Assembly (NCBI RefSeq): GCF_041146795.1
Contig: NC_135185.1
Location: 24,374,529-24,438,528 of the forward strand
Source: Maylandia zebra
Lineage: Eukaryota; Chordata; Actinopteri; Cichliformes; Cichlidae
DNA: 64,000 nt
Direction: 5' to 3'
Part shown: positions 27,234 to 64,000 of the stretch, piece by piece
Numbering within the stretch: the stretch's first letter is position 1
How the letters are laid out: every line of letters begins with the position of its first letter
Translations under genes and position numbers: made by a program
Notes under the pieces: generated by a model
Database searches by the model: none
Told to the model about the DNA's origin: nothing
Seen by the model: the letters and a program-made list of their open reading frames with translations, nothing else

Positions 27234-27333
27234 ATGCTTACACCTTGTAGAAAAATAAGGAAGCAATACATGAATGGATGTAAATACACAATACCTGTAA
27301 GAGTCTCTACCAAGTTCACAGACCTGCCACATG

Positions 27334-36577: not shown

Positions 36578-37570
36578 TCACAATTTAAAACTTGTCAGGC
36601 GTGTGGACAGTCGGCTGAAAGATGCTGTTTGAGTCTTGTTCCACAATATGAAGAGTTCCTTTGCTCGTTTCTGGAAAGTTTTCCCTACTAAGACGTAGAG
36701 AATGGGGTTAAGGACACTGTTGAAGAAGGCAAAGTACGTAGAGATCTGTTGGACGATGGTCAGTGTGATGTGGCATTTCAGAATGCCAGTGTTTCGGAGC
36801 ACATCTAGTATCTTTGTCACGTGGAATGGCACCCAGCAGATCAGGAATGCCAGGAGAACTGCCAGGATGAGAGTGGTGGCCTTCTGATCCGTTTTCTGAA
36901 TGTTTAAAACCTCCATTAGCCTCTTTCTCAGAGTTTGAATAATTTTGACAGTGCAGAACAAAATAATGATAACAGGGACGATGAAGCTGAATGTTATGGT
37001 TGTCACCTCAGATGCCAGATATTGCTCTGGAAAAGTTAGGTTAAGTGAACAGTGAGTAAGATTTAACTGAGAGTTGAATTCTAACTTCCTGTAGATGAAT
37101 ATGGGGAGAGCAAAGACCAAGCCAAGACCCCACACAAACAGACATCCCAGTTTGGCATAAAACGGCCGGCGTATCCTCTCATGGGAAAGTGGGTGCACCA
37201 GTGCCACATAACGATCTATGCTAACCATAACAAGGAAGTAAATGCTACAGAACGCATTCATGTAGATAACAGCTGATGTCACTTTGCACAGGCTTTCACT
37301 GAAAGGCCAGTCAAATCCCTTTCTTGTATATTCAGCCCAGAAGGGCAAAAAGCACACCAGAGCAAGGTCAGCTCCAGCCAGGTTGCTGAGGTATATCTCA
37401 GCCACAGTGCAGGCCTTCTTGTGGAGGCAGAAAACCATCAGCACAAACACATTAAAGATGATTCCAAGCACGCTGATGACCAGGATGTAGGGTGGAACTA
37501 GAGTGAAGACCAAGCTGTTGTCTTCAGGAATACAATGGTCTTCTCCTGTGTTACTTTGGTCTCCAGACAT
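36578..37570 (-). CDS. bdkrb2: Bradykinin receptor (B2-like), intact
   Basis: A 330-residue class A GPCR in one coding exon. It matches bradykinin receptors through VFCLHKKACTVAEIYLSNL and LPFWAEYTRKGFDWPF. Other marks: TM2 Asp (ADLALV, residue 68), Cys95 and Cys174 for the extracellular disulphide, DRY 119-121 (SIDRYVALVHP), CWVPFH in TM6 (245-250), NPILY in TM7 (288-292), glycosylation sites NLT, and a Ser/Thr-rich tail. The ligand is presumably a kinin and the coupling Gq. The TM6 and TM1-2 wording favours B2 over B1. The start at 37570 is chosen because an acceptor (tcctctctctgcag) lies 29 bases upstream and both tandem copies start at the same Met; the frame is open to 37690 but without support. 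The transcript probably begins in the non-coding exon at about 39477-39600. Confidence 0.85.
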   Translation of the reverse strand: MSGDQSNTGEDHCIPEDNSLVFTLVPPYILVISVLGIIFNVFVLMVFCLHKKACTVAEIYLSNLAGADLALVCFLPFWAEYTRKGFDWPFSESLCKVTSAVIYMNAFCSIYFLVMVSIDRYVALVHPLSHERIRRPFYAKLGCLFVWGLGLVFALPIFIYRKLEFNSQLNLTHCSLNLTFPEQYLASEVTTITFSFIVPVIIILFCTVKIIQTLRKRLMEVLNIQKTDQKATTLILAVLLAFLICWVPFHVTKILDVLRNTGILKCHITLTIVQQISTYFAFFNSVLNPILYVLVGKTFQKRAKELFILWNKTQTASFSRLSTRLTSFKL

Positions 37571-39476
37571 CTTGACAGAGTAAGAGTTGGAACGGATGCT
37601 GCAGAGAGAGGACAGCAACACAGGTAAAACATTATGAAATGCTATGTTATATGGAACACAGTGATATACTTCATTGTCATTAAAACTCATAATGCAAAAG
37701 CTGTTGCTGTATTTCCAGTTCGTTCCTAATAAATAAACACTGTGGCAAGTTCAGGCACAGAACCTGTTTTGGTGACTCCTGAAAGAAAATCATTTTTTAA
37801 ATTTATTTATTTAATGAACTTTTCTCACCATCTCTAAACCCTTACTAAAATTCAAAAACAATGACAAGAGTTAATTTTCTTAGTTTTGTTATTAGGATTA
37901 AAGCCTCTCTTTAAAAAAAAAAAAAAAAAAAATCAAAACAAAAACAACCCTTGCGATTAGGGTTGGTTCAGGTGACGGCAAACCATTCATACTTTTTTGC
38001 CATCACTTATTCAATTCAGGGAGTGTGGGAGGAACCCAGAGTACCCAGTGAGAGGATAGAAACACTATGCAAAAGGTCCCTGACTGGATTTGAACCCAAT
38101 AGCTTTGTACTTTGAAGCAGCAGAGCTTACCACTGCACCACTGTACTGCCAAGCCTAACACTGAAGTTGCTCTAGGCTCATCCAATTAGACAACTTACTA
38201 TGATGCACAACGTATTTTCCTTCTATTTCTCATAAACTTTTATCTACTTTCTACCATAGTTTGTGTTTTCCTTTGCGTACCCATGAACCACTTGTTTCTC
38301 TTCTTTTTCCACTCATCTCCCAACTATTCACAGTAAAGATGGCTAGCCCTTCCTGAATCGGGGTTTGCCAAAGGCCTCTTCCTGTCTCAAAGAAGTGTTT
38401 CCCCCCAGGGACTTGTATGCGTGTCAGGTTTTTCTCTATCATAGTCTTCATCTTTCACTATAAAGACCTTAAGGGAACAGTTTGTGCAAACTGGTGCTAA
38501 ATAAATAAAAATCAACTGATTTTCCCCCTTGCCTAGACATTTAAAATAGTAAACAAACAAACAAACAAACAAACAAAAACCCTCCTCAAAAAATAAAAAA
38601 ACCTCAATCTTTCATAGAAAATTGATTTTCTATGAAAATCTGGTGTTAATGACAGATAATTGATGTCTTGAGTAACATCAACACCAACAATAACTCAAAC
38701 ACTCAATCCTCTAAAGGGTTGCTGAACTTTGTTTTTGTTGCTTTTAAAACTTTTTTGTATTAAAAGTACTTAATTCTAACACCCCCCTGTCCCCCACGCC
38801 TATGTAGTATTTTGTATTTGTTTTTGCACATAAACGATAACAACCCAAAGGTATTCACATTTTAAACTTACTGCGGTTCAGCAAAACAGAAACCACATTG
38901 AATGCAGAACTTTTCCATATCTGTCACTTAACGCTGCATAATATGAAAAGCAATTGCACAAAAGGATGATTAACGGTTATCAGCACCAATCCAACAACAT
39001 TTTGCCTGCATGTCGCCTCCACTGTATAACTGCGGGGCATCCACAGTTTCTGTATGTTTTCTCAGCAGCTTTAAAACAATTTTAACTGAAATGCATGAAC
39101 GCTTAAAAACAAAACAAAGTGGCAAAAAACAAAAACTCGTCATCATGTGTGTGTGTTTGTATTAGTCTAAATGTTTAATCGTACTTACTCGTTTTGGTTA
39201 AAGGTTCTCAAAACGCTAAACGTGTTGAGACAAATCCAGTTAAGAATCTGCAGTTACACCTGACAGAGTTCATAACCTGCACAGCCAGAATATTAACTCA
39301 AAACTTTGTTGTTATTTGTCACAAGTAATGATATAAAGCAGAAAACACTTTTCATTATAAATCATTATGCACACTGTTAAGTAGTAGTTATGATTTAATT
39401 AACCTTAAACTGCAGAAGAAAAAAGGTAAAGAAAAAAAAACACAGACAGAAAAGTAAAAAACAAGTTTGTTCATAC
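37571..39476 (-). other. 5' UTR tail and intron of the bradykinin receptor
   Basis: The acceptor for the coding exon sits near 37599 (minus strand CTCTGCAG). The rest up to the donor at 39476 is intron, with a (A)n run near 37912-37931, a short (CAAA)n at 38550-38576 and a dispersed repeat piece at 38020-38152 (GGATTTGAACCCAA … CCACTGCACCACTGTACTGCC, a sequence type common in fish genomes). Confidence 0.55.
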
Positions 39477-39600
39477 CTTGTACGCAAGAGTCTGTCCTCT
39501 AGGTAAAAAACGAAAGCGTCCCAAAAATCAACTATACACACCCAACACCTTGTGCTACTGACTGTGGCTGTCGCTGACTTCGAGGGGAAAGTAAACCGAT
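39477..39600 (-). other. Putative non-coding first exon of the bradykinin receptor gene
   Basis: On the minus strand a donor CTTGCGTACAAG|GTATGA ends at 39477. The corresponding position in tandem copy B (near 53188) reads CCTGCAAG|GTATGT within aligned flanks, so an ancestral non-coding exon 1 with this donor is likely. The 5' border is a guess. Promoter elements could not be defined; a long TA/TG microsatellite lies just upstream. Confidence 0.5.
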
Positions 39601-43645: not shown

Positions 43646-43839
43646 CAGTACCTTAGGTGAACTGCCCTTAGCAACTGGAACAATGACAGCATGTTTCCAA
43701 ATCTTAGGTACTTTTTGCTCATACTTAATCCCCCATTCATCGTTTAAAATCATCACAGCACACGTCCTAACTTAAAATATCTCAATACTGCAATTCAGTG
43801 TGTGCGTGTGAGGACATAAAGTTGGATGTTTTATTTATT

Positions 43840-44480
43840 TCATTGGTGGATGAGTACCTCAGCTCTTTTCTGGAAGGGTTTTCCCACACTAACATAGAGA
43901 ACGGAGTTAAGGACACAGTAGAAGAAGGATGAGTTAGAAGATGACCTGCACAATGTGACACTCGAGAATGTGAATGTCTTGGAGTAAATCTAGTATCCTG
44001 CTCATGTGAAATGGCAGTGGATTAGGAACACCAGGAGAAATGCCAGGTTGGTGGTGGACTTCTCAATTTTTAAACAGTTAAACTGGCCTGCTTTTTTAAG
44101 AGCTTGAATAATATGGTACATTTCTCTTTTATTTTTAATGTTCTCTCTAACTGAGAAATTGTAACTTCAATGAGCAATGATCAAGTCAAGACCCCAGTAG
44201 GCTACTCTTCCGCTCCTGGCGAAGTATGTGCAACAGTGCCACCTAAGGATCTATGCTAAGGAAAATGAGGACTTAGATGCTGCAGAACGCATTCATGCAG
44301 ATAACAGCTGATGACTATATGCGTAGGATTTCACTGAAAGGCCAGTCATAGCCATTTCTTACACAGAATACCATTAGCAAAAATGCAAAAACCCCAACAA
44401 AAAACCCTTAAAGATGATTCCAAGCACACTGATGACCAGCATGTACACTGGAAACCGCCAACATCACCGTCAACAAGCTT
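43840..44480 (-). pseudogene. Bradykinin-receptor-like pseudogene 1
   Basis: The minus strand is similar along its length to the receptor at 36578-37570: the TM7 and tail part (GGAAGGGTTTTCCCACACTAA, AGAGAACGGAGTTAAGGACA), the TM6 part (ATCTAGTATCCTGCTCATGTG), the second-intracellular-loop region (AGTGCCACCTAAGGATCTATGC) and the TM3 region (GCAGAACGCATTCATGCAGATAACAGCTGATG). Frameshifts, stops and a missing TM4-TM5 part prevent any receptor product. It is an old tandem copy in the same orientation. Confidence 0.75.
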
Positions 44481-46030
44481 GTGGGAGCCAAGTTAAGATA
44501 GTTCATATGTTTTAGTATTTATATTTCGCTGTTGTTAAGCTTGTTTGTGTAATTAATAATTTTGGAAGTAAATGCATGTTTATGGTGGAACTAAAATTAT
44601 TTTATTGCTCTGTTGGTTTGGTTATGTAGTACCATGAATACATGTGCCTTAAAAGACTCGTGTTTATAGTAAAATCCGGGCATCACGGATGTATGCAGGT
44701 TAGCGCATGCGGTGCGGGAGGGGGGAGAGAGAAAAAGAGTTAACACGGCATAAGCTATACGCGGCAGCAGGGTAGAACAGAGCCACACGGTTTTCCTACC
44801 GTAGTAGGTTATTTTGTTGAGGATAAGTTAAACCTGACCACTCCTGTAAGATGCAAACTGTGGAATACATTTTTTGTTACATCTTTTCACATCGGAGTCC
44901 CGTGGAGTTCTTTTTCCTCTTCAAACTGATGTACGCGTGTGAAGCATGGGAAAACTGGTCTCACGGCTTACACAAAGCTAATTATATCAGGAGTGCAATG
45001 ACTTCGTCATTTGTGTTGTTTTGGTTTCCAGATATTGTCACAGAGCCAAATTTGGATGGGATTCTAAACAAAAAACCAGAAAATATATCATTTTAAGTGT
45101 CTCTTTTCTGGCATATTGTCGTTACTATGTTGTTACTCTGGAGATGCAGAGATGCATGTCTATTTAAGTAACACTGATATTCAGTACAAAATACTCAAAA
45201 TGCTCATATTTCAATTAGTTCCCAAAGAGGCTGAATCAAAATAATAATTTTTAGAAAGCAGTGGCAAAATCCAAGCTCTGTGATTTGATAGTGTAGTTAT
45301 GTAGTGATGCTTGTTTTTGCTGGGCTAACAAAACTTTCATTATCTAGTTTTAGTCAGTGGCACAAAAAGCTGTAGGCACAGGATCATAGGTCGGTGGATC
45401 ATAGGTTACCTAGGTTCAGCTGTGTCCCTGCCCACAGCGTGATCACCACACTTGTAAACAGGAGCACAACTGCACATGAAAATGGCTGCAAATGATGAAA
45501 AGAATATCTGCTAAAACCAAGCAGATTTTAGTATGAATCATGAAAAAGATATATATGAGATATGTAAACTCTAAAATACTTACTTTCAGATTATGGTCAT
45601 TTTTTCCAGGAAATAATGTTGTTTGAGTATTTTACAGGATACATAATTTACAGAGATCTTATCTATCTTCCGTACCAAGAGCGCTTTACAATTCACAGTG
45701 TCATTTTCACACCAACAATCACCTGAAACGTCAAGTCATGAGTATACATATTCTAACCTTTGCAGCCACTTAAAAAACCCTGAAGACTTCATTATATGTG
45801 TGTGTAAGTTTGAATAAATACATTTGTATGAATATATTCATGCAAATGAAATTACTGTATGGGGCTGGGAAAAAGTGTTGCCCCAAATGCAGACTACTGG
45901 AGACTTGAAGAAACAAAAAAGTGAGCTTCACTACAGGAACTAAAATAACGCCAGAAGGAGTGATATTTCTGACAGCACCCAGAAATGCAATAATAATCAC
46001 AGGAACACTAACAAAAAGAAGACGACGCAA
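44481..46030. other. Spacer between receptor pseudogenes
   Basis: No gene was recognised. The part from about 45885 is shared with 57755-58180 and belongs to a duplicated block around the pseudogenes. Confidence 0.5.
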
Positions 46031-46031
46031 G

Positions 46032-47142
46032 CTAAGCCAAGAAAAACCACAAATCAAGACAGCTGCTTATTAATTCTCTGAGTTTGAAACCGTCTGCTAG
46101 ACTGTTTCTCACAACTTGACTAGTGCAGAAGGAAATGATGATAGCAGGGATGATAAAACTAAAAATGATCAGCATCCTCTCCATCATTAGATATGGATCT
46201 TTTATGAGGTTAAATGTGCATTTAGTAACATTTGACTGAGGGTGAATTTTGAACGTCCTGTAGATGACTGTGTGAAGAGCAAAGACCCCACCCAAACAGA
46301 CATCCCAGTTTGGTGTAAATGCCCTACTCTTCCTCTCATAGGAAAGCACCAGTGCAACATAGGGCTGCTCAATTAATCGAATTTTAATCTCGATTACGAT
46401 CTGGGCTTTCAACGACCATTAAAAATGACTGAGCCGATTATTAGCCCCTCCCTCGTGCTTTACTCTCGCGCTGCTCCATGTGGCAAATCGAGCGCACCGC
46501 TCTGCATTTCGAATACCTGTCACAACAATTAAGAAGAGAACCCGAGGGAAGCTCGGAAAGCTAAGTAGAAGTTATTTGGAGAGGAGAGTGACTGCCATTG
46601 GTTGAACAGAGAGGTAAAAAAAACTTCAGTGGTGTGGAAACATTATGGGTTCGCGGAGTCATAGACATAGTGTGTAAACTTTGCTACAGTGTCGTAGCTG
46701 CACCACAGAGCAACACTGCAAAATTCACTAAACATAGATGTTTACATTTTTCATTTATTTCTTATATTGCAAACATTTGCACTGCATCAGTATTTGCACA
46801 CTATTTTATATTATTTTTTGACAATCTTTAAAGTCATTATTCAATACATTGTTATTGTTAAATAAATATCGTCAAATAATCGAGATCTCAATTTCAGTGA
46901 AAATAATCATGATTATCATTTTTGCCATAATCGAGCAGCCCTAGTGCAACACAATGATCTATGCTAACCTGAACAAGGAAGTATCTTCTGCAGAATGTAT
47001 TCGTGTTGATAACAGCTGATGACACTTTGCATAGGATATCATTGAAAGACCATCTGTTATCAGCCAGCTCACACAGCACACCACACATATATACACTCGT
47101 AAACAGGAGCACCATTGCACATGAAAATAATTGCAAATGCAA
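46032..47142 (-). pseudogene. Bradykinin-receptor-like pseudogene 2, split by a hAT MITE
   Basis: On the minus strand the first part (47142-46952) reads CGVLCELADNRWSFNDILCKVSSAVINTNTFCRRYFLVQVSID, equivalent to the end of TM2 through TM3. After the 584-bp MITE the frame continues VALVLSYERKSRAFTPNWDVCLGGVFALHTVIYR and FIIPAIIISFCTSQVVRNSL (TM4-TM5 and the third loop). The N-terminus, TM1 and most of TM6-TM7 are missing. The DRY position reads Asp-His-Cys, and the ORF is broken. A close copy at 58251-58766 lacks the MITE. Confidence 0.8.
46360..46943. mobile_element. hAT-type MITE inside receptor pseudogene 2
   Basis: It starts TAGGGCTGCTC and ends GAGCAGCCCTA, with the 8-mer GTGCAACA duplicated at 46352-46359 and 46944-46951. 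The 584-bp body is non-coding, with ATTAATCGAATTTTAATCTC near the left end and ATAATCATGATTATCATTTT near the right. The paralogous block at 58587-58594 has GTGCAACA only once and no insert, confirming both the borders and the duplication. Confidence 0.93.
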
Positions 47143-47220
47143 AAAATGAATTTCTGATGCAAATCCCAGAAGATTAGTTCTGTAGCTGCAGAATTACCAG
47201 AAACTGCAAAACAACTGCAA

Positions 47221-47277: not shown

Positions 47278-47479
47278 TGGTGCCTGTCAGTTGCTCAGAT
47301 GGTAGCTGTCAGCTTTATGCAGGTTACACATAGATTTACACACTCTGCTCCCAGGTAAGTCACCTAGTATGATAGCCACAACCCTAATAATCCTATTTGG
47401 ATGATATGAGTCAGTGGCAGAAACACAATCATATAATAATGAAAAACAAATCAACAACCCAAGCAGAAAACTTAGTTTA

Positions 47480-47919
47480 TCAGTTCCCAGAGTCAGAACC
47501 AGACACGGAGAAGCTGCATTCAGCTTTTATGCTCCTTATATCTGGAACAAACTCCCAGAAAGCCTCAGATCAGCTGAAACACTCAGTTTATTTAAGTCCA
47601 GGTTGAAGACTCACCTATTCTCAGCTGCATTTGAATAAAGCACCAAATCCACACTTTAAGCTTAAATTTCAAAACTTACATTTAACTACTGATTTTATCT
47701 ACTGTTCTGATTTTATCTGTTTTGATTTTATATACTGTTGTTTGTTTGTTTGTTTGTTTGTTTGTTAATTAGTTAGTTAGTTTATTTGCTTGTTTTATTC
47801 AATTTTAAATCATGCTTTTTATTTGTTCTTGTTTCTAATGTCTCTGTAAAGCACTTTGAATCACCTTGTTGTTGAATTGTGCTATACAAATAAACTTGCC
47901 TTGCCTTGCCTTGCCTTTA
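47480..47919 (+). mobile_element. 5'-truncated L2-like LINE tail, present only in block A
   Basis: The plus strand encodes AFSFYAPYIWNKLPESLRSAETLSLFKSRLKTHLF, the typical end of a fish L2/CR1-group ORF2, then a 3' UTR ending in TTGCC repeats (47897-47915). Block B at about 51312 reads straight through without it (TTAGTTTAAAACCC). TTTA occurs on both sides of the insert and is a likely short target duplication. Confidence 0.88.
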
Positions 47920-48087
47920 AAACCCTTCTAGCAAAATAAGTTTTTTAAGTTATGGAAGCTGCTATAGCGTCTTCTCTCTAAGATCACACCTTACGCTGCC
48001 AATGTAAGAATATATATATGAACACAAAGGCTCCTAATGCTTGAATGAATAATTGCCAGTTTAATTTTTCAAACTTTAAGGCTTTTT

Positions 48088-49002
48088 TCACTGCTTGAAG
48101 AATTCCTTTGTCCTGTTCTGGAAGCTTTTCCCAATAATGACGTGGAGAATGGGGATAAGGACACTGTTGAAGAAGAGTAAGTACATGGAGACCTCTTGGA
48201 TGATTACAAGTATGATGTGACATTTCAGCAACACTAGTAACGATGCCACGTGGACTGGCACCCAGCAGATAAGGTATGACAGTACAACTGCCAGGATGAG
48301 AGTCGTGGTCTTCTGCTCTGTTCTCTCAGGTTTTAAAACCCCCATTAGCCTTTTTCTCAGAATTTGAATAATTCTGACAGCGCAGAACGAAATAATGACA
48401 ACAGGGATGATAAAGTTGAATATTATGTCTCTCACCTCATACAGCAGATATTGATCTAGTGAAGTGGAGTCGAGTGTACATTCAGTTGTATTTGACTGAG
48501 GGTTGAATTCTAACTTAATGATGATGAATATGGGGAGAGCAAAGACCAAACCAAAACTCCACACAAACAGACATCCCACTTTGGCATAAAATGGCCTGCT
48601 CATCAACTCGTGGAAAAGTGGGTGCACCAGTGCCACATAACAATCTAAGATAGCCAGAACAAGAAAGTAGATATTGCAACATGTACTCATTCTTATAACA
48701 GCTGGTATCAGCTTGCACAGGCTTTCACTAAAAGGCCAGTCATAGTTGGCTCTTGCATCATCAACCCAGAAGGGCAAACAGCACACCAGAAGAAGCTGAG
48801 TTCCAGTCAGCTTGCTCAAGTGGATCTCAGTCACAGTGCAGGCCTTCTTGTGGAGGCAGAAAACCATCAGCACAAAGGCATTAAAGATGAATCGAAGCAC
48901 ACTGATGACATAAACCGGAGCCATAGCGATGATTATGTTATTGTTGTCAACAAAGATGTAATCACAATGGTCTTCACTTGTGTTGCTTTGGTTTCCGGAC
49001 AT
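48088..49002 (-). CDS. Atypical bradykinin-receptor-like GPCR, copy A (DRY to DCY)
   Basis: A full-length open frame of 304 residues, clearly derived from the same ancestor as the receptor at 36578-37570 (MSGNQSN…, VFCLHKKACTVTEI, DWPFSESLCK, YVALVHPLFHELMSRPFYAK, ERTEQKTTTLILAVVLSYLICWVPVH). Key residues are altered. The TM2 Asp is Gln (TGTQLLLV), DRY is DCY (residues 120-122, codon TGT at 48640-48642 instead of CGT), NPILY of TM7 is IPILH, and the tail stops at EFFKQ about 22 residues early. Both disulphide cysteines remain. It sits in duplicated block A. The aligned position of the exon 1 donor (about 49692) reads AAG|AT. It is either a young pseudogene with a still-open frame or a non-signalling receptor. 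Confidence 0.7.
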   Translation of the reverse strand: MSGNQSNTSEDHCDYIFVDNNNIIIAMAPVYVISVLRFIFNAFVLMVFCLHKKACTVTEIHLSKLTGTQLLLVCCLPFWVDDARANYDWPFSESLCKLIPAVIRMSTCCNIYFLVLAILDCYVALVHPLFHELMSRPFYAKVGCLFVWSFGLVFALPIFIIIKLEFNPQSNTTECTLDSTSLDQYLLYEVRDIIFNFIIPVVIISFCAVRIIQILRKRLMGVLKPERTEQKTTTLILAVVLSYLICWVPVHVASLLVLLKCHIILVIIQEVSMYLLFFNSVLIPILHVIIGKSFQNRTKEFFKQ

Positions 49003-50019
49003 CTTCAGTGTCAGGAATTAAGTTGGCAGGGATGCTGGAGTGAAATAAAGGATACCAAAATAGGAAACATAAATATAATTTTAACTGGTATTGTTCTAAC
49101 ATAATTTGTTATGATGACAGAAAATATAGAGATGCAATTCTGAATAAGACTGTTATATAACTAACAGGCTTCAGACCCTGAGTGACCTGAATTGGAATAG
49201 GAGAAGAAAATGGATAGGTTGATAGTATTTGATTCAATTTTAAAGACCATCATCATATTAGAAAACATGCATAACCAATGCACAATTTAAATCATATTAA
49301 GAGCTGAGCGTGCTTTCCAGCATCATAGAGTCATCGCCACAACACCAGCTACATAAAACAAGTTCACAAGTTTTATTATGCTTTTTGGGGGAAGTCTGTA
49401 TTAAATACACTTTCGTTTGTGCTAAATACATTACTATAAACGTTCTTACTGCATGAGGCTGAATTTGATCAAAACACAAAACATGCTGAGACAAAATCAG
49501 TTAATCTGCCGTCTACTTGTCGACACGTTACAGTACACCTAAGAACATCACTGCTTCCAAAACCTGTGCAGCTGTTAAACTGAAGAAATTTCCTTTTTTA
49601 TACAGATAGTGCCAAAAAGTCAAAAACACTGTTCCTGATGGACAGTGATTTAGACCTTGCAAATATTCCAACTAAAGGTAAAGACATATCTTGCAGGCAA
49701 ATTGGTCTGTGCTCCTAATGGAAAAAGAGCAAACAGCCAGCTACACTCTCTCAGTACCTTCTGCTACAGTCTTCTTTCTGAAATGCTTAATTTAAAGAAG
49801 AAACTAAACTGATAGTCAAGTGATTTCAGATAAGAGAGACATCACACCCAGGCTATGACCACTTCCTTTACTCTTCACTGAAGTCCTTAGTTACTTCTAA
49901 ACATTTTTTTCTCTGGGTTGATTTTATAAACAAAAATGACCCTATTATGGACAGAGAAAATTTTCCATTTATTAACTTAATGCCAACATGTTAGACGCTG
50001 TCGTTATCGATTAAAATAC

Positions 50020-51140
50020 ACAGGAGACTTTTAACGACATGTCTATTCCAAACTACAGATCCTGATTCATTTTGACTGCAGGAAAGACCTGGAAAAACTT
50101 TCAGGCTTTCACCTTTAACAGGTGTTTTTTAAGATATTTGTGTTGAAACATGACAAAAATGCCTGGATGTCTGCCAGTGCATCATTTTAAAAATATAGTC
50201 AATATCTTGAAATGAATTTGATATGCTACTTCAAAGCACATTGTGTGCTGTCTGTCCTGCGTGCTGCATAACAACAACAATATTTAGTATTTACTGCTGT
50301 TTACACTTAGCTAGATTAATGCGATGGTGTTGTGTTTAGTATGTTGCTTTGTTTTTTTTGCTTGTTTTCTATTCTTTCTCTCTCAACAGGTGATCCAGGA
50401 GATTTTTTTTCCCCTTTCTCACTGTCCCTCTTCCCTTCTGTTTTTCTTTTCCTTCCTCTCTTTTTTTCTCCCTTTCCTATCCCTCACTCATGTCTGTCCC
50501 GTCTGTAACAACTGAAAATAAAATAAAATAAATAATAAAAACAAAGGTCGATCAAATGGACCAATACGGCAATGCCATGATGATCCATTTGGCAAAATAA
50601 ATCCATTGGGTATCCTTGTTGGTCTTCAGACAACAATTCTGAAGGCTAAAGAACCAAATGGGACAGGCAAAAAAACAAAAACAAATACAAAACAAAAGAA
50701 AGAAATGAATTTGATATATAAGGCTAGAAATTCACAGCAATCATTTAAGTTCATTATATATTTTGAAACTTTGAGTCATAACATTTTTATTCAATTCAGA
50801 TATGGTCGAGCAGAAGGCCCACGTTGATTTGAGATGGGGTGATCCATATGAGAAACAGAAAATACACGATTATTATATGTTTATATTTTCTGTTCATATG
50901 TTCTTTGAGAGTTGAATACATAAATGTATGATGTGATTTATTAAACCGTCACAATTTTTCTTACACAGCATAATTATGTTGTGATTTGTTTGAATAAATA
51001 AGTCACACGGTGAGTAGAAATTAATTTTTTTATTCATTGACAACAAGTATTAATACAGTAGCTGCAGAATTACCAAACACTATTTGCATGTACAAGAATT
51101 TAGAAAAAGAAATTTTAAGAAGACATTTGCCCAGAGGGCA
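50020..51140. other. Rest of block A and spacer to block B
   Basis: Non-coding. 50022-50330 corresponds to 63691-64000 at the window end. A retroelement at 50225-50701 is listed separately. 50718-51140 shows nothing that I recognise. Confidence 0.5.
50225..50701 (+). mobile_element. 5'-truncated retroelement with A-rich tail and 16-bp target duplication
   Basis: The 16-mer GAAATGAATTTGATAT occurs at 50209-50224 and 50702-50717, enclosing a non-coding piece that ends in an A-rich tail (AAAAAAACAAAAACAAATAC). The body matches, in inverse, the 3' part of the element at 53396-55606 (for example CAGAATTGTTGTCT there, AGACAACAATTCTG here). The left target duplication and first part of the insert recur at about 63877-64000, so the insertion predates the segmental duplication. 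Confidence 0.85.
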
Positions 51141-51483
51141 GCTGTCAGCTTTATGCAGGTTACACATAGATTTACACACTCTGCTCCCAGGTAAGTCACC
51201 TAGTATGATAGCCACAACCCTAATAATCCTATTTGGATGATATGAGTCAGTGGCAGAAACACAATCATATAATAATGAAAAACAAATCAAAAACCCAAAC
51301 AGACAACTTAGTTTAAAACCCTTCTAGCAAAATAAGTTTTTTAAGTTATGGAAGCTGCTATAGCGTCTTCTCTCTAAGATCACACATTATGCTGCCAATG
51401 TAAGAATATATATATGAACACAAAGGCTCCTAATGCTTGGATGAATAATTGCCAGTTTAATTATTCTACCTTTAAGGCTTTTT

Positions 51484-52392
51484 TCACTGCTTGAAGAATT
51501 CCTTTGTCCTGTTCTGGAAGCTTTTTCCAATGATGATGTAGAGAATGGGGTTAAGGACACTGTCAAAGAAGGCTAAGCACACACAGACCAAATCGATGAT
51601 TTCCAGCATGATGTGACATTTCTGACTGTCAGTGTTTTCGAACACAAGTGTTTTCACGCAGAATATCACCCTGCAGATCAGGCATGACAGTACAACTGCC
51701 AGGATGAGAGTCGTGGTCTTCTGCTCTGTTCTCTCAGGTTTTAAAAACCCCATTCGCTTTTTTCTCAGAATTGTAATAATTCTGACAGAACAGAACAAAA
51801 TAATGATAACAGGGATGATAAAGCTGAATATTATGTTTCTCACCTCATACAGCAGATATTGATTTTGTGAAGTGGAGTCGACTATACATTCAGTAATATT
51901 TGACTGAGGGTTCAATTTTACCTTACTGTAGATGAATATGGGGAAAGCAAAGACCAAACCAAAACTCCACACAAACAGACATCCCAGTTTGGCATAAAAT
52001 GGCCTGCTCATCAACTCGTGGAAAAGTGGGTGCACCAGTGCCACATAACAATCTAAGATAGCCAGAACAAGAAAGTAGATATTGCAAAATAAATGCATTC
52101 TCACACCAGCTTGTACCAGCATGCACAGGCTTTCACCAAAAGGCCAGTCAATGCTTAATCTTACATCATCAGTCCAGAAGGGCAAACAGCACATCAGAAC
52201 AAGATGAGTTCCAGTCAAGTTGCTCAAGTAGATCTCAGTCACAGTGCAGGCCTTCTTGTGGAGGCAGAAAACCATCAGCACAAACGCATTAAAGATGATT
52301 GCAAGCAGGCAGATGACATAAACTGGAGCCAGAGTGAAGTCATTGTCAACAAAACAATGCTCTTCACTTGCGTTGCTTTGGTTTCCGGACAT
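51484..52392 (-). CDS. Atypical bradykinin-receptor-like GPCR, copy B (DRY to DCY)
   Basis: An open frame of 302 residues, the partner of copy A. It shares DCY (residues 114-116, codon at 52048-52050), the VTEI in TM2 and the early stop after EFFKQ, so these changes predate the duplication. Its own changes: the TM2 Asp is His (TGTHLVLM), and CWxP of TM6 is CRVI (SCLICRVIFCV). It keeps NPILY in TM7, Cys at the TM3 start (GESLCM), an N-terminal NQS/NAS and a loop NIT glycosylation site. An acceptor (tttatttcactccag) lies about 34 bases before the ATG at 52392, and the exon 1 donor (CAAG|GTATGT) near 53188 is intact, so splicing still looks possible. Ligand binding without G-protein coupling is conceivable; loss of function is the simpler explanation. 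Confidence 0.7.
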   Translation of the reverse strand: MSGNQSNASEEHCFVDNDFTLAPVYVICLLAIIFNAFVLMVFCLHKKACTVTEIYLSNLTGTHLVLMCCLPFWTDDVRLSIDWPFGESLCMLVQAGVRMHLFCNIYFLVLAILDCYVALVHPLFHELMSRPFYAKLGCLFVWSFGLVFAFPIFIYSKVKLNPQSNITECIVDSTSQNQYLLYEVRNIIFSFIIPVIIILFCSVRIITILRKKRMGFLKPERTEQKTTTLILAVVLSCLICRVIFCVKTLVFENTDSQKCHIMLEIIDLVCVCLAFFDSVLNPILYIIIGKSFQNRTKEFFKQ

Positions 52393-53188
52393 CTTCAGTG
52401 TCAGGAATTAAGTTGGCAGGGATGCTGGAGTGAAATAAAGGATACCAAAATAGAAAACATAAATATAATTTTAACTGGTATTGTTCTAACATAATTTGTT
52501 ATGATGACAGAAAACATAGATACACCTAATTCTGAATAAGACTGATATGTAACTACCCGGCTTCAGACCCCGAGCGACTTGAATTGGATAAGCAGAAGAA
52601 AATGGATTGATATATAGTATTTGATTCAGTTTTAAAGACCATCATCATATTAGAAAACATGCATAACCAATGCACATTTTACATCATATTTAGAGCTGAG
52701 CGTGCTTTCCAGCATCATAGAGTCATCACCAATGCACCAGTTACGTAAAACAAGTTCACAAGTTTAGTATTCCCATCCTCACATTTACAGACAGTTTAAA
52801 ACAATTTAAATGTGAATTTATTATATGTTTTGGGGGGCAGTCTTTATTAAATACATTTTCGTTTGTGTTAAATACATTACTATAAACGTTCTTACTGCAT
52901 GAGGCTGAATTTGATCAAAACACAAAACATGCTGAGACAAACATGCTGAGACAAAATCAGTTAATCTGCCGTCTACTTGTCGACACGTTACTGTACATCT
53001 AAGAACATCACTGCTTCTAAAACCTGTGCAGCTGTTAAACTGAAGAAATTTCCTTTTTTATACAGATAGTGCCAAAAGGTCAAAAACACTGTTCCTGATG
53101 GACAGTGATTTAGACCTTGCAAATATTCCAACTAAAGGTAAAGACATAGGAAAGTAAATTCCAAGTCAAATTAAGCGTTTACATACCT

Positions 53189-53300
53189 TGCAGGCAAATT
53201 AGTCTGTGCTCCTGATGGAAAAAGAGCAAACAGCCAGCTACACTCTCTCAGTACCTTCTGCTACAGTCTTCTTTCTGAAACGCTTAATTTAAAGAAGAAA
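53189..53300 (-). other. Putative non-coding first exon of receptor copy B
   Basis: Minus-strand sequence before the donor CCTGCAAG|GTATGTAAACG, aligned with the exon 1 candidate of the intact receptor. The 5' border is not defined. Confidence 0.4.
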
Positions 53301-53395
53301 CTAAACTGATAGTCAAGTGATTTCAGATAAGAGAGACATCACACCCAGTCTATGACCACTTCCTTGACTCTTCAATGAAGTACTTAGTTAGTTCT

Positions 53396-55606
53396 TTTTT
53401 TTTTTTTTTTTTTTTGCGCCTGTCCCGTTTGGCTCTTTTGCCATCAGAATTGTTGTCTAAAGGCAAAGAAAGATGCCCAACGGATTTACTTTACCAAATT
53501 GACCATCCCAGCCTTGCCGTAATGGTCCATTTGATTCACCTTTTATTGTTGATTTTATTTTCACTTACTGAATACGGGACAGACTTGACTGGGGGAAAGA
53601 AGGGGAGAAAGAAAGAGGGAAAGAGAAACAGCTGAGAAGAGGGACGGGAGAGAAGGGCAAAAGACAAAAACCAACAGAATGAGCAGAAAAAAAAAAGCAT
53701 ACATCAATCACCTGGATCACCTGCTGAGAAAGAAAAAAGAAAACAAGCAGAAGAGAACAAGAGTAATAGAATAAACAACATCACAATGATATATGGGAAT
53801 ATGACAGTAAATACTAAATATTAAACATTATTGTGCAGCACATAAGATCAACAGAACACAGTGTGCTTTGAGGTAGGAGCCAAAAAGGGTGTAGTTTGTG
53901 GGTGTGATCACCCGTGTGTACACCTGTGAGCATGGACGCGCTTGTTTTTTGTTTTTTAAAAGGTTCCTTCATGTAATGATCTGCTAGAGGGTGTGGGGGG
54001 GCCACAGCCCCGTCCTCCAGGGCATGAAGCAGGTATGGAGGAGATCAAAACTCCAGACATCCAGAGGCCCCCAGAACACTAGAGACCAAGGAAGACCAAC
54101 AGAGTGGCAGCCGCGCCACTGTCCCAGAAAGAGCTGAGGAGAGTCCCAGATGAGGGCTCACTCAGCAGCCGCGGAGCAGAAGCCAGGGGGAGTTGCAGTG
54201 ACGCGCCCGTGAGCTCCGCCGGCAGCCAGCCGTGCCTGAGTGACCGAGCCCCAGGCCGAGAGGCCGGGGGCACCCCACCTCCGAAGTGGCCCGAGCGAGC
54301 CCCAGGCTCCAGGCCCCGATAAGCGGCCGCCAAGTTGTGAACCGGTGTGTACCTGGACGCCCATCCCCGGACACAAAGAACCACCAACGCACCGATGTCT
54401 GAGGGAGTCCGCCACTGGCAGGGGAAGTGGTGGTAGGGGGAGATAGGCCTCCATACCTTGGAGGGCCTAAGATGTCCCCAGAGAGGTGGCGCCTGACACC
54501 CAACCTGACATATAGACACAGAAATACAGGCACACACATACACAAACATCCATTCCCACCCTCATGCTCTCATATGCACTTCCTCCACACTCAACCAACG
54601 TGGAGACAGACATAAAGAGACGCTGTACACACGATCACACTCCCCAAGCATACTCTACAAACCGGGTCTAGGTACCCTTGCCCCTGGAGGGGGGGAACTG
54701 CACCCAGACCCAGGTGGTGTTACCCTTTTCCCTGCGGTGGGGGGAGGCAGACCGCCCCGACTCCGCAGCAGCAGGGAGGCCCCACACTCCAGACCGCAGT
54801 CGGACGGCCAACTCCTCCTCCTAGCCCCCCCGCTCCAGCAGGTCGCAGAGAATGGGGGTGAGAGAAGACTACAAACCTCCCTCCACCCGCTCATTGTAGT
54901 GTTGATGCATGTGTGTTCTAAGGTGCAATTAAAACCCAGGAGGGCATGGAGCTACCTGCCAGAGAGCAGCAGGTAAGCGCATGGTCCCTCCTGCTAGCCC
55001 TCAATGTCTACGTGTATTTAACATTGAGAGGTGGGCAACGACGCCAGGGGTGGGGTGTACACCCTGATGGTACTTTGGATTCCGTGTATCGTGCCCACCC
55101 TCAAGATCCTATATGTATGTGTAATGAGAGTGTGAGTAATGTGAATGTCTAAGTTGTGGGATAAAATTGAGGCAGAGGCAGCCAGAAGGGGACGGGGGGG
55201 GGGGGGGGGGGGGGGGGGGGTAGCCTCCTCTGCACCCTGGTGACATACCCCTACTCCAAGGTCCTGCACGTGTGGGTGGTTGTGGTGGAGCGGGAAGAGG
55301 GAGGCAGCTGGAGATGGGGAGGGAAGGAAGGGAGGGGCGAGTGACCCCTCCCTGGGGCCAGCTCCCCCGCTGACCCCAGTAGGCACCCCCATACTCCGCG
55401 ACCCGCCAGGGAAAGGGGGCCCAGGCCCATCCAGACCGGGGCCCAGTGCAGCAGCGCCTCCCGGCCCCACAGAGCCCGGGACAGTCCACCCAACCCCACC
55501 ACAGAGAAAACTGCACCCACCCCACCATCCACTCATCTTCCAGACTACATAAGAAAATAAACACCCAGGCTGAGATCTTCCTCCACCTCTCCTGTGTCTC
55601 CCCCTC
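53396..55606 (-). mobile_element. 2.2-kb retroelement with poly(A) tail inserted in block B
   Basis: The direct repeat CTTAGTTAGTTCT (53383-53395) and CTTAGTTACTTCT (55607-55619) surrounds an insert that begins, on the plus strand, with about 20 T (a poly(A) tail on the minus strand). Block A has the uninterrupted sequence near 49888. The part next to the tail matches the shorter copy at 50225-50701. The distal 1.5 kb is very GC-rich with a 27-G run. It contains overlapping open frames on both strands that look compositional. No reverse transcriptase was recognised; it may be the 3' region of a 5'-truncated LINE or a non-autonomous element. Confidence 0.82.
55194..55220. repeat. Poly(G) run of 27
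   Basis: Uninterrupted G tract inside the GC-rich retroelement. Sequencing and assembly length errors are likely here. Confidence 0.9.
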
Positions 55607-55740
55607 CTTAGTTACTTCTAAAAATGTTTTTCTCTGGGTTGATTTTATTAACAAAAATGACCCTATTATGGACAGAGAAAATTTTCCATTTATTAACTTA
55701 ATGCCAACATGTTAGACGCTGTCGTTATCGATTAAAATAC
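55607..55740. repeat. Segmental duplication, block B (second part)
   Basis: Matches block A 49888-50019 (CTCTGGGTTGATTTTAT, TTAATGCCAACATGTTAGACG, GTTATCGATTAAAATAC). After 55740 similarity stops and resumes only at 63691. Confidence 0.85.
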
Positions 55741-57335: not shown

Positions 57336-57562
57336 ATCTCAGTATTTATTCTGTCGAGTACATCTAGTATCCTGCTCATGGGAGAATGGGCACCCAGCAG
57401 ATCAGGAATGCCAGAATGAACAACTCACAGGATGAAAGTGGTGGCCTCCTACTCCATTCTCTGAGTGTCTCACCCCTCTTTTCCCCAGTGCGTGAATAAT
57501 TATGACAGTACAGAAGGAGATCATGGAAACAGAAATGATGAAGCTGAAGATAATGGTCCTTG
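57336..57562 (-). pseudogene. Bradykinin-receptor-like pseudogene 3 (TM5-TM6 remnant)
   Basis: The minus strand resembles the TM5-TM6 part of the intact receptor: ATCTAGTATCCTGCTCATGG, GGCACCCAGCAGATCAGGAATGCCAG (the CWVP region), GTGGTGGCCT and ATGATGAAGCTGAAGATAATGGT. It is short, frameshifted and interrupted on its right by a hAT-like fragment. Confidence 0.7.
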
Positions 57563-57754: not shown

Positions 57755-58840
57755 TGCAGACTACAGGAGACTTGAAGAAATAAAAAAGTGAGCTTCATTG
57801 CAGCTGATTCAATGCTAAAAGAAAAAATCCAAACAAAGGCTTAGAAAGTCCAAATAGCACCAGGAGGAGAAAACACACTAGGAACTAGACAGATGGACAC
57901 CAGAGGCTTTAAACACATACACAAAGTAATCATGAAGAGTCAGCACAGCTGGAGATAACAAGGCATAGCAGAATCTAGACACAAACGGGAAAGGTAAAAA
58001 AATATAGACCACAAGAGGCCAAAGACCCAAATTAAAAAGACGAAGCAACAAAACAGGGCAAAGCCTAACATTAAGACGGGGACTTGACAGTAAAACACTA
58101 GGGGAACTAAAATAACGCCAGAAGGGGGGATATTTCTGACAGAACCTTGAAATGCAATAATAATCACAGGCACACTAACAAAGCTCAGCCTAAAATAATA
58201 ATTAAACTAAAGCTCAAGAACAGCAATGAAAAGCAAACTAAAATGCTCAATTATAAGAAGAAGACGCAAGATAAGCCAAGAAGAACTGCAAAACATGACA
58301 GCTGCTTAATTCTCTGAGTGTTTAAACGAACTGCTAGACTGTTTCTCAGAGCTTTTCTAATGCTGTGCAGAAGGATAACAGGGATGATAAAACTAAAAAT
58401 AATCAGCATCCTCTCCATCATTAGATATGGATCTTTTGTGAGATTAAATGTGCATTCAGTAACATTTGACTGAGGGTGAATTTTGACCTTCCTGTAGATG
58501 AATGCGTGAAGAGTAAAGACCCCACACAAACAGACATCCCAGTTTGGTGTAAAATGCCCTACTCTTCCTCTCATAGGAAAGCACCAGTGCAACATGTGAT
58601 CTATGCTAACCTGAACAAGGAAGTATCTTCTGCAGAACGCATTCGTGTTGATAACAGCTGATGACACTTTGCATAGGATATCAGTGAAAGACCATCTGTT
58701 ATCAGCCCAGAAGCTCACACAGCACACCACACATATATACACTCGTAAACAGGAGCACCATTGCACATGAAAATGGTTGGAAATGCAAAAAATGAATTTC
58801 TGCTGCAGATCCCAGAAGATTAGTTGTTCCTTTGGTACTT
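57755..58840. repeat. Duplicated pseudogene block C
   Basis: Matches 45885-47170 (GTGCAGACTAC, GGAGACTTGAAGAAA, AACTAAAATAACGCCAGAAG, the pseudogene, GAAAATGGTTGGAAATGC). Relative to that copy it has an extra segment at about 57800-58096 and lacks the hAT MITE. Confidence 0.85.
58251..58766 (-). pseudogene. Bradykinin-receptor-like pseudogene 4 (no MITE)
   Basis: An open but receptor-incomplete frame: FWADNRWSFTDILCKVSSAVINTNAFCRRYFLVQVSID (TM2 end to TM3), a frame change at the former DRY region, then FTPNWDVCLCGVFTLHAFIYRKVKIHPQSNVTECTF and MLIIFSFIIPVI (TM4-TM5). There is no TM1, TM6 or TM7. It is the sister of pseudogene 2 and preserves the empty MITE target at 58587-58594. Confidence 0.8.
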
Positions 58841-59489: not shown

Positions 59490-61790
59490 TCTGAGAATAG
59501 AATAGAATAGAATTCAACTTTATTGTCATTGCACATGCACAGGTACAGGGCAACGAAATGCAGTTTGCATCCATCCAGAAGTGCTTTAGCCATGATATAG
59601 ATATATTACAATATATATTAGCAATAGTATAGATATGTAAGTATATTACAGAAATGGGTCTATTATGGTATGTTATAATGTATACGGTATGAAGTATGTT
59701 ATGAATATTCTATAACTATAAGCATGTACAGGCTGTAGTGAATACAAGCTATGTACAGGCTATGAACAGGATATAAATATGAAAAACTATACAGAATATG
59801 AAATAAATAACTTTAAAGAAATCTGAGATATACAGCTATACAGAAATGTGAACTATGCAAGTTATAAACAGTTGTAGGATTAAAAATTATCGTATGTACA
59901 GAATGATTATTTACACAGAACTATAAAGTAGTGCAGTTAAGATAAGTGAGATATGTGGATAATTTCTACAGAGGCTATATAAAGTGCTAGTGTTTGTGAG
60001 TGGTGGTTCAGTCCATGTAATTATTGTGTGTTTGAGGGTACGGTTGTCCATTGTGTGTGTGTGTAGGTGGTTCTGGGTGTGTGTATGTTCAGTCCATGAG
60101 TTTAACGTGGGTCAGATGTCAGGAGGCAGAGTTCAGGAGTCTGACAGCTGTGGGGAAGAAGCTGTTCCGGTACCTGGTGGTCTTAGTCCGGAGGCTCCTG
60201 TGGCGCCTCCCAGAGGGCAGGAGGGTGAAGAGTCCATGTGATGGGTGACTGGGGTCTTTGATGATTTTCCCAGCCCTTTTCAGACACCGCTTCCTGTAGA
60301 TGTCCTTTATGGCAGGAAGTGGTGCTCCGGTGATGCGCTGGGCAGTTTTCACGACCCTCTGCAACGCCTTCCGGTCCGAGGCAGAGCAGTTCCTGTACCA
60401 GACTGTTATACAGTTGGTCAGGATGCTCTAGATGGTACCAGTGATGGAAGTTCACCAGGATGTCTGAGGACAGGTGGTTCTTCCTCAGAGTCCTCAAGAA
60501 GAAGAGGCGCTGGTGAGCCTTCTTGACCAGCTTGGAGCAGTTGGTCGTCCAGATGAGATCCTCGGAGATGTGGACTCCCAGGAACTTGAAGCTGCTCACG
60601 CGCTCCACAGCCGTCCCCTTAATGTGGATGGGTGGATGTGGGTCAGCATTCCTCCTGTAGTCCACGATGAGTTCCATAGTCTTCTTGGTGTTAAGCAGCA
60701 GGTTGTTTGTGTCGCACCACTCAGCCAGACGATCCACCTCCTCCCTGTAGGCGGCCTCATCGTTGTCACTGATGAGGCCAATCACCGTGGTGTCATCTGC
60801 AAACTTAATGATGGTGTTGGAACCATCAGCAGGTCTGCAGTCGTGGGTGAAGAGGGAGTAGAGGAAAGGCCTCATCACACAGCCTTGTGGTACACCGGTG
60901 TTCATTGTGATTGTAGATGAGCAGTGGTTATCCAGCCGGACATGTTGGGGGCGGTTTGTCAGGAAGTCCAGTAACCATTTGCAGATGAGGGAACTGATGC
61001 CCAGGTCTGTCAGTTTCCTGATGAGTTGTGAGGGGTGGATTGTATTGAATGCTGAACTGAAGTCTATAAACAGCATTCTGGCGTAGGTGTTGTTGTTGTC
61101 CAGGTGTGAGAGGACAGAGTGCAGTGCGATGGAGACTGCATCCACTGTGCTCCGGCGGTATGCGAATTGGTGGGGGTCAAGGGGGAGGAGGGGGGGGGGG
61201 GGGGGGGGGGGGGGACAGGATTTGAAGTGTGTTAGGACCAGCTGCTCTAAGCACTTAGTGATGATGGGGGTGAGTGCTACTGGGCGGTAGTCATTGAAGC
61301 TAGATGGGTTGGAGTTTTTGGGTATCGGGATGATGGAGGTGGATTTGAAGCAGGTCGGTACCACAGCGTGGACCAAGGACAGGTTGAATATGTCTGTGAG
61401 CACTCGTGCAAGCTCCCCAGAACACGCTCTGAGAACACGCCCGGGGATGCCATCAGGACCTGCAGCCTTGTGGACATTGATCCTGCTCAGCACCGCTCCT
61501 ACATCGGTGGGGGAGAGAGTCAGAGGTTGGTGGTCTGGCGTCATGTCTGTTTTGGTTGTGGTTGTGGGGTTCCCTCGCTCAAAACGAGCATAAAACCTGT
61601 TGAGCTCCTTGAGGAAGGAGACATCAGAGGATGCGGGGGAGGGTTTGGTGGTCCTGTAGTCTGTAATGGTCTGGAGTCCTTGCCACATGCGTCGGGGGTT
61701 GGAGTTGGAGAAGTGTTCTTCTGCCTTCTTTTTGTAATGGTGTTTGGCTTTTTTGATGCCCTTCTTTAGATTAGCCCTAGCTTCTTCACT
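59490..61790 (-). mobile_element. L2-like LINE (older), 3' part
   Basis: On the minus strand, from 61790 down: [23 protein letters not shown], then [38 protein letters not shown], motif A MLFIDFSSAFNTIHPSQL, TGVPQGCVMRPFLYSLFTHDC, the catalytic box KFADDTTVIGL, LNTKKTMELIVDYRRN, SFKFLGVHI and QRLFFLRTL. Near 60430 the frame shifts, and the C-terminus (LQRVVKTAQRITG, KDPSHPSHGLFTLLPSGRRHRSL) is read in another frame to about 60119. The 3' UTR ends in ATTCT repeats (59496-59512). A 25-base G/C run expands a proline stretch. The N-terminal part of this ORF resumes at 63189 after a nested LINE. Confidence 0.87.
61190..61214. repeat. Poly(G) run inside LINE reverse transcriptase
   Basis: 25 consecutive G on the plus strand, encoding Pro repeats (SCPPPPPPPPLLP) in the minus-strand LINE frame just before the FAYR motif. 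Confidence 0.9.
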
Positions 61791-63690: not shown

Positions 63691-64000
63691 AGGAGACTTT
63701 TAACGACATGTCTATTCCAAACTACAGATCCTGATTCATTTTGACTGCAGGAAAGACCTGGAAAAACTTTCAGGTGTTCACCTTTAAAAAGGTGTTTTTT
63801 AAGATATTTGTGTTGAAAAATGACAAAAATGCCTGGAGGTCTGCCAGTGCACCATTTTAAAAATATAGTCAGTATCTTGAAATGAATTTGATATGCTACT
63901 TCAAAGCACATTGTGCGCTGTCTGTCCTGCGTGCTGCATAACAACATTCAATATTTAGTATTTACTGCTGTTTACACTTAGCTAGATTAATGCGATGGTG
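63691..64000. repeat. Segmental duplication, block B (third part)
   Basis: Matches block A 50022-50330 nearly base for base (AGGAGACTTTTAACGACATG … GCTAGATTAATGCGATGGTG) and runs off the window. It includes the left side of the shared retroelement insertion. Confidence 0.9.

Follow-up and report, generated by a model that had tools for sequence, protein, structure and literature searches.

The window analysed here, 64,000 nucleotides of Maylandia zebra contig NC_135185.1 (positions 24,374,529 to 24,438,528 of the forward strand; coordinates below count from its first letter), carries on the minus strand, from about 36.5 to 58.8 kb, at least six clustered copies resembling kinin receptors, of which one is intact, three are broken and two, called A and B, are full-length but have lost the arginine of the DRY motif. 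The comparison of these two copies, which suggests that B may be an atypical peptide receptor, is the subject of this report, and the three genes on which the argument turns are the following (ORF, open reading frame; 7TM, seven-transmembrane; TM, transmembrane helix).

48088..49002, minus strand: copy A, a 304-amino-acid kinin-receptor-like 7TM ORF with DCY, Q2.50, CWVP kept and IPILH at NPxxY
51484..52392, minus strand: copy B, a 302-amino-acid kinin-receptor-like 7TM ORF with DCY, H2.50, CRVI at CWxP and NPILY kept
36578..37570, minus strand: the intact B2-kinin-receptor-like gene, 330 amino acids from the methionine common to A and B

An earlier reading of the letters alone (the sequence-only reading) had described A and B as uninterrupted frames, and this holds, since both contain zero internal stops. 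The mechanical ORF of the intact gene reaches 37690, its added part lying upstream of a likely splice acceptor. The Pfam domain 7tm_1 was recognized in A and B with 133 and 136 bits (cut-off 30.5; E values 1.5e-38 for A and 2.8e-39 for B), and the best PDB sequence matches of A, B and the intact gene were the B2 and then the B1 bradykinin receptors, with E values to the B2 receptor of 6.1e-49, 2.1e-49 and 7.6e-74, respectively. Indeed, the top six PDB matches of A and all six of B at 1e-30 were B2 or B1 receptors, which places both copies in the kinin receptor family. In NCBIfam, the sole match among the three proteins was that of B to a lactate transporter, which scored 20.8 bits for a cut-off of 390 and was taken as chance.

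The motif losses claimed by the sequence-only reading were all found again (residue positions are labelled by our own count from the conserved x.50 residues). Both copies read DCY (R3.50C; GAT TGT TAT) where the intact gene reads GAT CGT TAT; the aspartate D2.50 of TM2 is replaced by glutamine in A and by histidine in B; both proteins stop two residues past KEFF, with a C-terminal tail 21 alignment columns shorter than that of the intact protein; A lacks NPxxY (IPILH for NPILY) and B lacks CWxP (CRVI for CWVP). As such, the canonical class A signalling set is complete in neither copy. The same TGT codon in A and B is most simply read as a single loss before the A/B duplication. R3.50, D2.50, F6.44, R4.64 and Q7.36 are changed in A and B alike; N1.50, W2.60, C3.25, the cysteine of extracellular loop 2 (ECL2), the N-terminal and TM7 cysteines, I3.40, D3.49, Y3.51, W4.50, P5.50 and P7.50 are kept in both. 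Alignment columns 13, 98, 177 and 269 are cysteine in A, B and the intact gene, so that the cysteines for two extracellular disulfides, TM3 to ECL2 and N-terminus to TM7, are present in both copies; cysteine 13, which lies outside the alignment with the B2 receptor (B2R), presumably corresponds to its C47. The same two pairs are given for B2R in the cited passage of PMC8821558. Moreover, A and B both bear N-terminal N-glycosylation sequons at N4 and N7 that the intact paralogue does not have, and both combine, in the manner of atypical receptors, an altered DRY motif with an otherwise unbroken 7TM protein.

Self-BLAST and alignment delimit the duplication in which A and B lie as follows.

47916..49898, no strand: tandem duplication unit with A
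51312..53395, no strand: tandem duplication unit with B, partner of 47916-49898
47480..47915, no strand: stretch of 436 bp within the 3' flank of A, not found at B

Past the 436-bp stretch, a block of 192 bp (47288-47479) matches 51124-51315 and is taken into the flank count. Between A and B, 62 of the 1256 aligned flank sites differ (0.049), against 109 of 897 sites in the coding region, and this contrast between tandem-unit flanks divergent by 4.9% and a coding region divergent by 12%, with an excess of amino-acid-changing differences, is the new observation made here. With flanks differing by about 5% and a 436-bp stretch found at A only, a false duplication formed by mis-assembled alleles was judged unlikely.

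The NG86 count gave 91.3 non-synonymous and 18.7 synonymous differences (dN 0.145, dS 0.098), and with a transition bias of 2.2 the corresponding proportions were 0.138 (pN) and 0.080 (pS), with p 0.02 between them and p 6e-11 for non-synonymous sites against the flank. When each codon was counted once, 73 non-synonymous codons stood against 11 synonymous ones (p 0.003). The pairwise ratio of non-synonymous to synonymous rates (omega) was 2.19 by maximum likelihood (p 0.004), and model M2a was preferred to M1a over three sequences with a likelihood ratio statistic (2dL) of 33.2 (p 6e-8) and a site class with omega of about 8; in 100 null simulations of M1a/M2a, the largest 2dL was 11.4 and three exceeded 5.99. 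The pairwise, branch and M1a/M2a codon models were our own Python versions, null simulation covering M1a/M2a alone; the three-way fits kept 298 of 333 columns, any column with a gap being dropped, and all selection tests rest on one genome and on A, B and the intact gene. The indels between A and B measure 9, 9 and 12 bp in the coding sequence, all multiples of three, versus 37, 14, 1, 53 and 2 bp in the 5' flank, none of which is (p 0.018).

The protein was split into an extracellular and an intracellular half at helix midpoints, according to Ballesteros-Weinstein ranges and after 30-codon windows had been viewed. In the extracellular half, pN was 0.211 and pS 0.107 between A and B (p 0.014; non-synonymous versus flank, p 6e-18), and 0.182 and 0.069 once two indel zones were removed. 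In the intracellular half, pN and pS were 0.060 and 0.052, both indistinguishable from the flank, as loss of G-protein constraint would predict since the A/B split. A and B differ in amino acid at 55 of 154 extracellular versus 18 of 144 intracellular columns (p 3e-6), and all three sequences are mutually different at 24 of the former versus 4 of the latter. Of 17 sites with a posterior above 0.8, 15 fall on the extracellular side, among them 3.33, 6.54, 6.55, 7.32 and 7.36, positions that contact kinin in B2R or in the B1 receptor (B1R) according to the passage cited (PMC8821558). Change common to A and B relative to the intact gene is about equal in the two halves (29 of 154 extracellular and 33 of 144 intracellular columns), although a comparison of the intact gene with human B2R finds conservation higher on the intracellular side (77 of 142 identical residues, versus 49 of 145 extracellular). 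Together, these figures suggest that constraint on the signalling face had already slackened along the A/B stem.

With free branch rates, omega was 3.38 for B (p 0.002 versus 1), 1.4 for A (p 0.40) and 1.08 for the branch from the intact gene to the A/B node. In the extracellular half, it reached 9.8 for B (p 1e-4) and 1.1 for A, or 3.8 (p 1e-4) and 1.7 (p 0.19) when A and B were given equal neutral times; the sole result favouring selection on A came from codons 1-240 with equal times (omega 2.5, p 0.03). For so few sequences, the support for positive selection on B is fairly good, and simple pseudogene status is improbable for B. Decay is a possibility for A, given non-significant selection over the whole gene, a lost putative splice donor and the lost NPxxY. 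The sequence-only reading had hesitated between a decoy receptor and relaxed constraint, with dN/dS near 1, stops in sister species and absent transcripts as the joint sign of decay. The ratio lies above 1, not near it, for the A-B pair and for the B branch, and an extracellular excess is not what plain decay produces, so that retained function gains, mainly for B, with A the weaker case.

The explanation that we favour, tentatively and at somewhat less than an even chance, is that B would be an atypical peptide receptor without G-protein coupling, of the kind of C5aR2 or of the decoy chemokine receptors, with its extracellular half positively selected, and A a weaker or failing sister. A B2-type kinin-receptor gene would have been copied in tandem several times, and one copy would have lost Arg3.50, Asp2.50 and part of the C-tail (arginine and tail being states that A and B have in common, the early loss of the aspartate being presumed). 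Judging from class A receptor biology, this copy most likely ceased to activate G proteins, and it would then have been duplicated into A and B. B stayed in frame with its four extracellular cysteines and its sequons; divergence counts and codon models indicate that its ligand-facing half changed under positive selection while the intracellular halves of A and B drifted at the flank rate. By analogy with known atypical receptors, B could bind and hold peptide, thereby lowering the supply to signalling receptors, or signal through arrestin; its ligand has probably moved away from the canonical kinin, and A would be its weaker version or be on its way out. A wider proposal, that a fish kinin-receptor lineage turned into a kinin-family counterpart of C5aR2, with a ligand-facing half caught in an arms race or a ligand shift and a drifting signalling face, appears doubtful; its partners could be, for instance, parasite or microbe mimics of kinin or a fast-changing endogenous peptide.

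Kinin binding by the decoy, which the sequence-only reading had considered possible, is not supported. R4.64 is replaced by isoleucine in A and serine in B, and Q7.36 by glutamate and leucine, respectively, whereas neither copy has a residue aligned with D6.58, where a gap lies in an alignment that is uncertain near this indel; the intact gene keeps all three residues. According to the passage cited (PMC8821558), kallidin no longer activated human B2R carrying R4.64A, and both D6.58 and Q7.36 are contact residues for the peptide; the changed contact residues thus argue against unchanged kinin binding. In B1R, the same passage states, K3.33 and R5.38 bind the des-Arg ligand by its C-terminal carboxylate (PMC8821558). 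A and B have arginine at 3.33 and tyrosine at 5.38, and a B1-like ligand preference is, as a guess, one possible shift. The intact gene itself has Tyr 5.35 and Thr 7.32 where B2R has the acidic E5.35 and D7.32, so that its own kinin binding is putative. Furthermore, a passage of PMC3835742 reports that teleosts have no plasma kallikrein-kinin cascade and that the kinin they use is [Arg0]-bradykinin, so that the ligand setting is unlike that of mammals.

Human B2 and B1 receptors (BDKRB2, BDKRB1), the best PDB matches, have the 7TM frame and the TM3, ECL2 and TM7 cysteines of A and B; unlike A and B, they keep R3.50 and D2.50, and position 3.33 is lysine in B1 and serine in B2. Among chemokine and complement receptors, relatives that do not signal are known: atypical chemokine receptors (ACKRs) have an altered DRY box, and C5aR2 adjoins its signalling paralogue. 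FPR1 and FPR2, on the contrary, keep their activation motifs. C5aR2 (C5L2) resembles A and B in its replaced Arg3.50 (leucine in C5aR2) and in its altered NPxxY (altered here in A only), and it binds C5a without G-alpha coupling, according to the passages cited (PMC5494583, PMC7612807); it belongs to another family and couples to arrestins, whereas A and B have lost most of their C-tail. Similarly, D6/ACKR2 is described in an excerpt of PMC7612807 as without functional G-protein coupling and as having an agonist in common with a canonical receptor. Unlike A and B, ACKRs have chemokine ligands; they also take up their ligand. FPR1 and FPR2 are of the peptide-sensing class A type with positive selection on extracellular domains, as proposed for B, but they signal (passage cited from PMC10566242). 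In the A3 adenosine receptor, R3.50A kept high-affinity agonist binding and arrestin recruitment and abolished cAMP and ERK responses (PMC9328438, in the part cited). Local duplication of BDKRB2 in fishes has already been described, as gar and six fishes have an extra BDKRB2-like set that probably arose in this way, in a passage that is itself silent on DRY loss or selection (PMC6504862). Among the matches listed in open-licence literature, there was no report of a DRY-less or non-signalling kinin receptor.

The remaining copies of the cluster, all found by self-BLAST, bear on the weighing of these explanations.

43834..44451, minus strand: kinin-receptor copy broken by stops, without Arg3.50 (DP*)
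46107..47064, minus strand: kinin-receptor copy broken by frameshifts and an insert, without Arg3.50 (DHC)
58263..58793, minus strand: broken kinin-receptor copy, sister of the 46-kb copy with deletions in common
57356..57557, minus strand: TM5-TM6 fragment

The fragment repeats a part also held by the 58-kb copy and is perhaps a fourth broken copy. Over 46016-47179 and 58255-58825, the 46-kb and 58-kb copies are 88-93% identical and have deletions in common, which indicates that an already broken copy was duplicated.

Besides the small number of sequences and the changed kinin contacts, several observations weigh against B as a retained atypical receptor. B has lost W6.48 and P6.50, and A has lost N7.49 and Y7.53. 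The CGT codon of the arginine holds a CpG, and CGT to TGT is a change of a high-rate type; the three broken copies that cover the DRY site also lack the arginine (GAT CCT TAG, GAT CAT TGT and, with the frame disturbed, GATCA-CATG), so that its loss alone says little in favour of a new function. In the NG86 bootstrap, the interval for dN minus dS narrowly includes zero (95% interval -0.010 to 0.102). Mutations are clustered, with 24 of 80 runs longer than 1 in the coding sequence versus 5 of 39 in the 5' flank, and with single-base codons only, the contrast between non-synonymous and synonymous change has p 0.09 over the whole gene and p 0.045 on the extracellular side. Extracellular synonymous divergence over all codons lies above the flank (p 0.011), mainly in TM6-ECL3-TM7. 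Among residues on which the intact gene and human B2R agree, the share missing from both copies is equal in the two halves, with 12 of 49 on the extracellular side and 19 of 77 on the intracellular side. On the branch formed by the intact gene plus the stem, omega was 1.24 in the extracellular and 0.88 in the intracellular half; with values near 1, no ordinary purifying selection is visible there and either the stem or the intact gene too was fast, so that rapid evolution may characterise the cluster as a whole. Finally, the short tail of A and B makes arrestin-driven uptake doubtful, and surface binding or interference with the intact receptor would be likelier than scavenging.

Alternatively, A and B could both be young pseudogenes, their open frames owed to luck and their high divergence to relaxed constraint, which we regard as unlikely, though as a serious competitor. 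At least three neighbouring copies are plainly broken, Arg3.50 is gone from A, B and the three broken copies covering the site, intracellular divergence equals that of the flanks, and omega of A does not differ from 1 over the whole gene, its putative exon-1 donor being gone. In addition, a neutral frame of 900 bases evolving at the flank rate would remain free of stops with a probability of 0.24 to 0.30, which makes the open frames alone weaker evidence. Relaxation, however, would bring divergence up to the level of the flanks and would not raise it to four times that level in one protein half, and it accounts neither for an omega of B above 1 (p 0.002) nor for coding indels that are all in frame. 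The broken 46/58-kb pair, used as a neutral control, has no significant excess at codon positions 1 and 2, with 10 of 204 sites versus 3 of 103 in clean alignment (p 0.55) and 22 of 243 versus 6 of 121 when a badly aligned stretch is included (p 0.21), although the direction is that of A-B and the sites are few.

It seems improbable that B, and perhaps A, still signals, through arrestin or through a G protein tolerant of Cys3.50, with a new ligand range and FPR-like selection on ligand choice. FPR1 and FPR2 do signal while showing extracellular positive selection (in the passage of PMC10566242), and D3.49, Y3.51, P5.50 and I3.40 are kept in both copies; against this stand the changed R3.50, D2.50 and F6.44 in both, the further motif losses of each, the short tail and the absence of detectable intracellular constraint since the A/B split. 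A gene conversion mosaic, with flanks and inner loops homogenised or a piece of an unseen paralogue pasted into one copy, would fit codons 241-300, which are high in both kinds of change (sd 9.5, nd 32.5), but is very improbable and was rejected as main cause, since conversion would shift both kinds of change whereas extracellular synonymous divergence outside the indel zones (0.069) matches the flanks (p 0.36) with non-synonymous divergence at 0.182, and codons 61-240 alone, a stretch chosen after viewing the windows, hold 47.8 non-synonymous versus 4.2 synonymous changes.

If the reading of B as an atypical receptor is true, a pair with one half positively selected and the other free would show a receptor's turn from signalling to binding, a prediction open to test by routine genome comparison and assays in cells; should B turn out to be a pseudogene, this example would call for caution with omega above 1 read from three sequences.

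Non-coding features are predicted upstream of the three genes.

39189..39276, minus strand: putative exon 2 in the 5' untranslated region (5'UTR) of the intact gene, donor GTAAGT
49450..49563, minus strand: putative 5'UTR exon 2 of A, from likeness to 39176-39243, splice sites by consensus only
52896..53023, minus strand: putative 5'UTR exon 2 of B, acceptor GCACAG and donor GTAAGA by consensus only, with a 14-bp tandem repeat inside
53181..53191, minus strand: putative exon-1 splice donor of B, GCAAG/GTATGT cut at the slash, intact-gene counterpart at 39471-39481
37606-37593, minus strand: putative acceptor of the intact gene, CTCTGCAG/CATCC cut at the slash, by consensus

Upstream of A, 68 bp match 39176-39243 upstream of the intact gene (72% identity, E 9e-9), and B has a version of 59 bp (71% identity, E 2e-6). 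This stretch, which sits 1.6 kb upstream of the intact start codon, ends in a GTAAG donor in all three genes, and a CAG acceptor lies directly upstream of the start codon in each. In the predicted structure, exon 2 is non-coding and a single main exon carries the coding sequence, which would make the intact protein 330 and not 370 amino acids long; mammalian BDKRB genes presumably have a similar arrangement of non-coding 5' exons before the main coding one. The corresponding junctions are predicted at 53187/53023 and 52896/52424 for B and at 49450/49034 for A. The exon-1 match between B and the intact gene, ending in CAAG/GTATG, is weak (E 0.14), and in A a 37-bp deletion removes the putative exon-1 donor, leaving GCAAGATATGT (49684-49694).

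Rfam gave no match at gathering scores within 24000-64000, and relatives were encoded by none of 36 pattern matches in the bacterial and archaeal collections and none of 83 in the viral one. Near the cluster, two intact ORFs on the minus strand resemble other G-protein-coupled receptors, 26268-27332 with the psychosine receptor (which we take to be GPR65) and 29020-29961 with GPR4 as best PDB match. On the plus strand, an open ORF of 353 amino acids at 33457-34518 presumably resembles a Tc1-type transposase, judged by eye, and the long minus-strand ORFs at 11505-14786 and 60183-61805 have, also by eye, the look of a retrotransposon reverse transcriptase. Two repeats at 96-98% identity, one of 310 bp (50022-50329 with 63691-64000) and one of 136 bp (49884-50019 with 55605-55740), are perhaps mobile elements.

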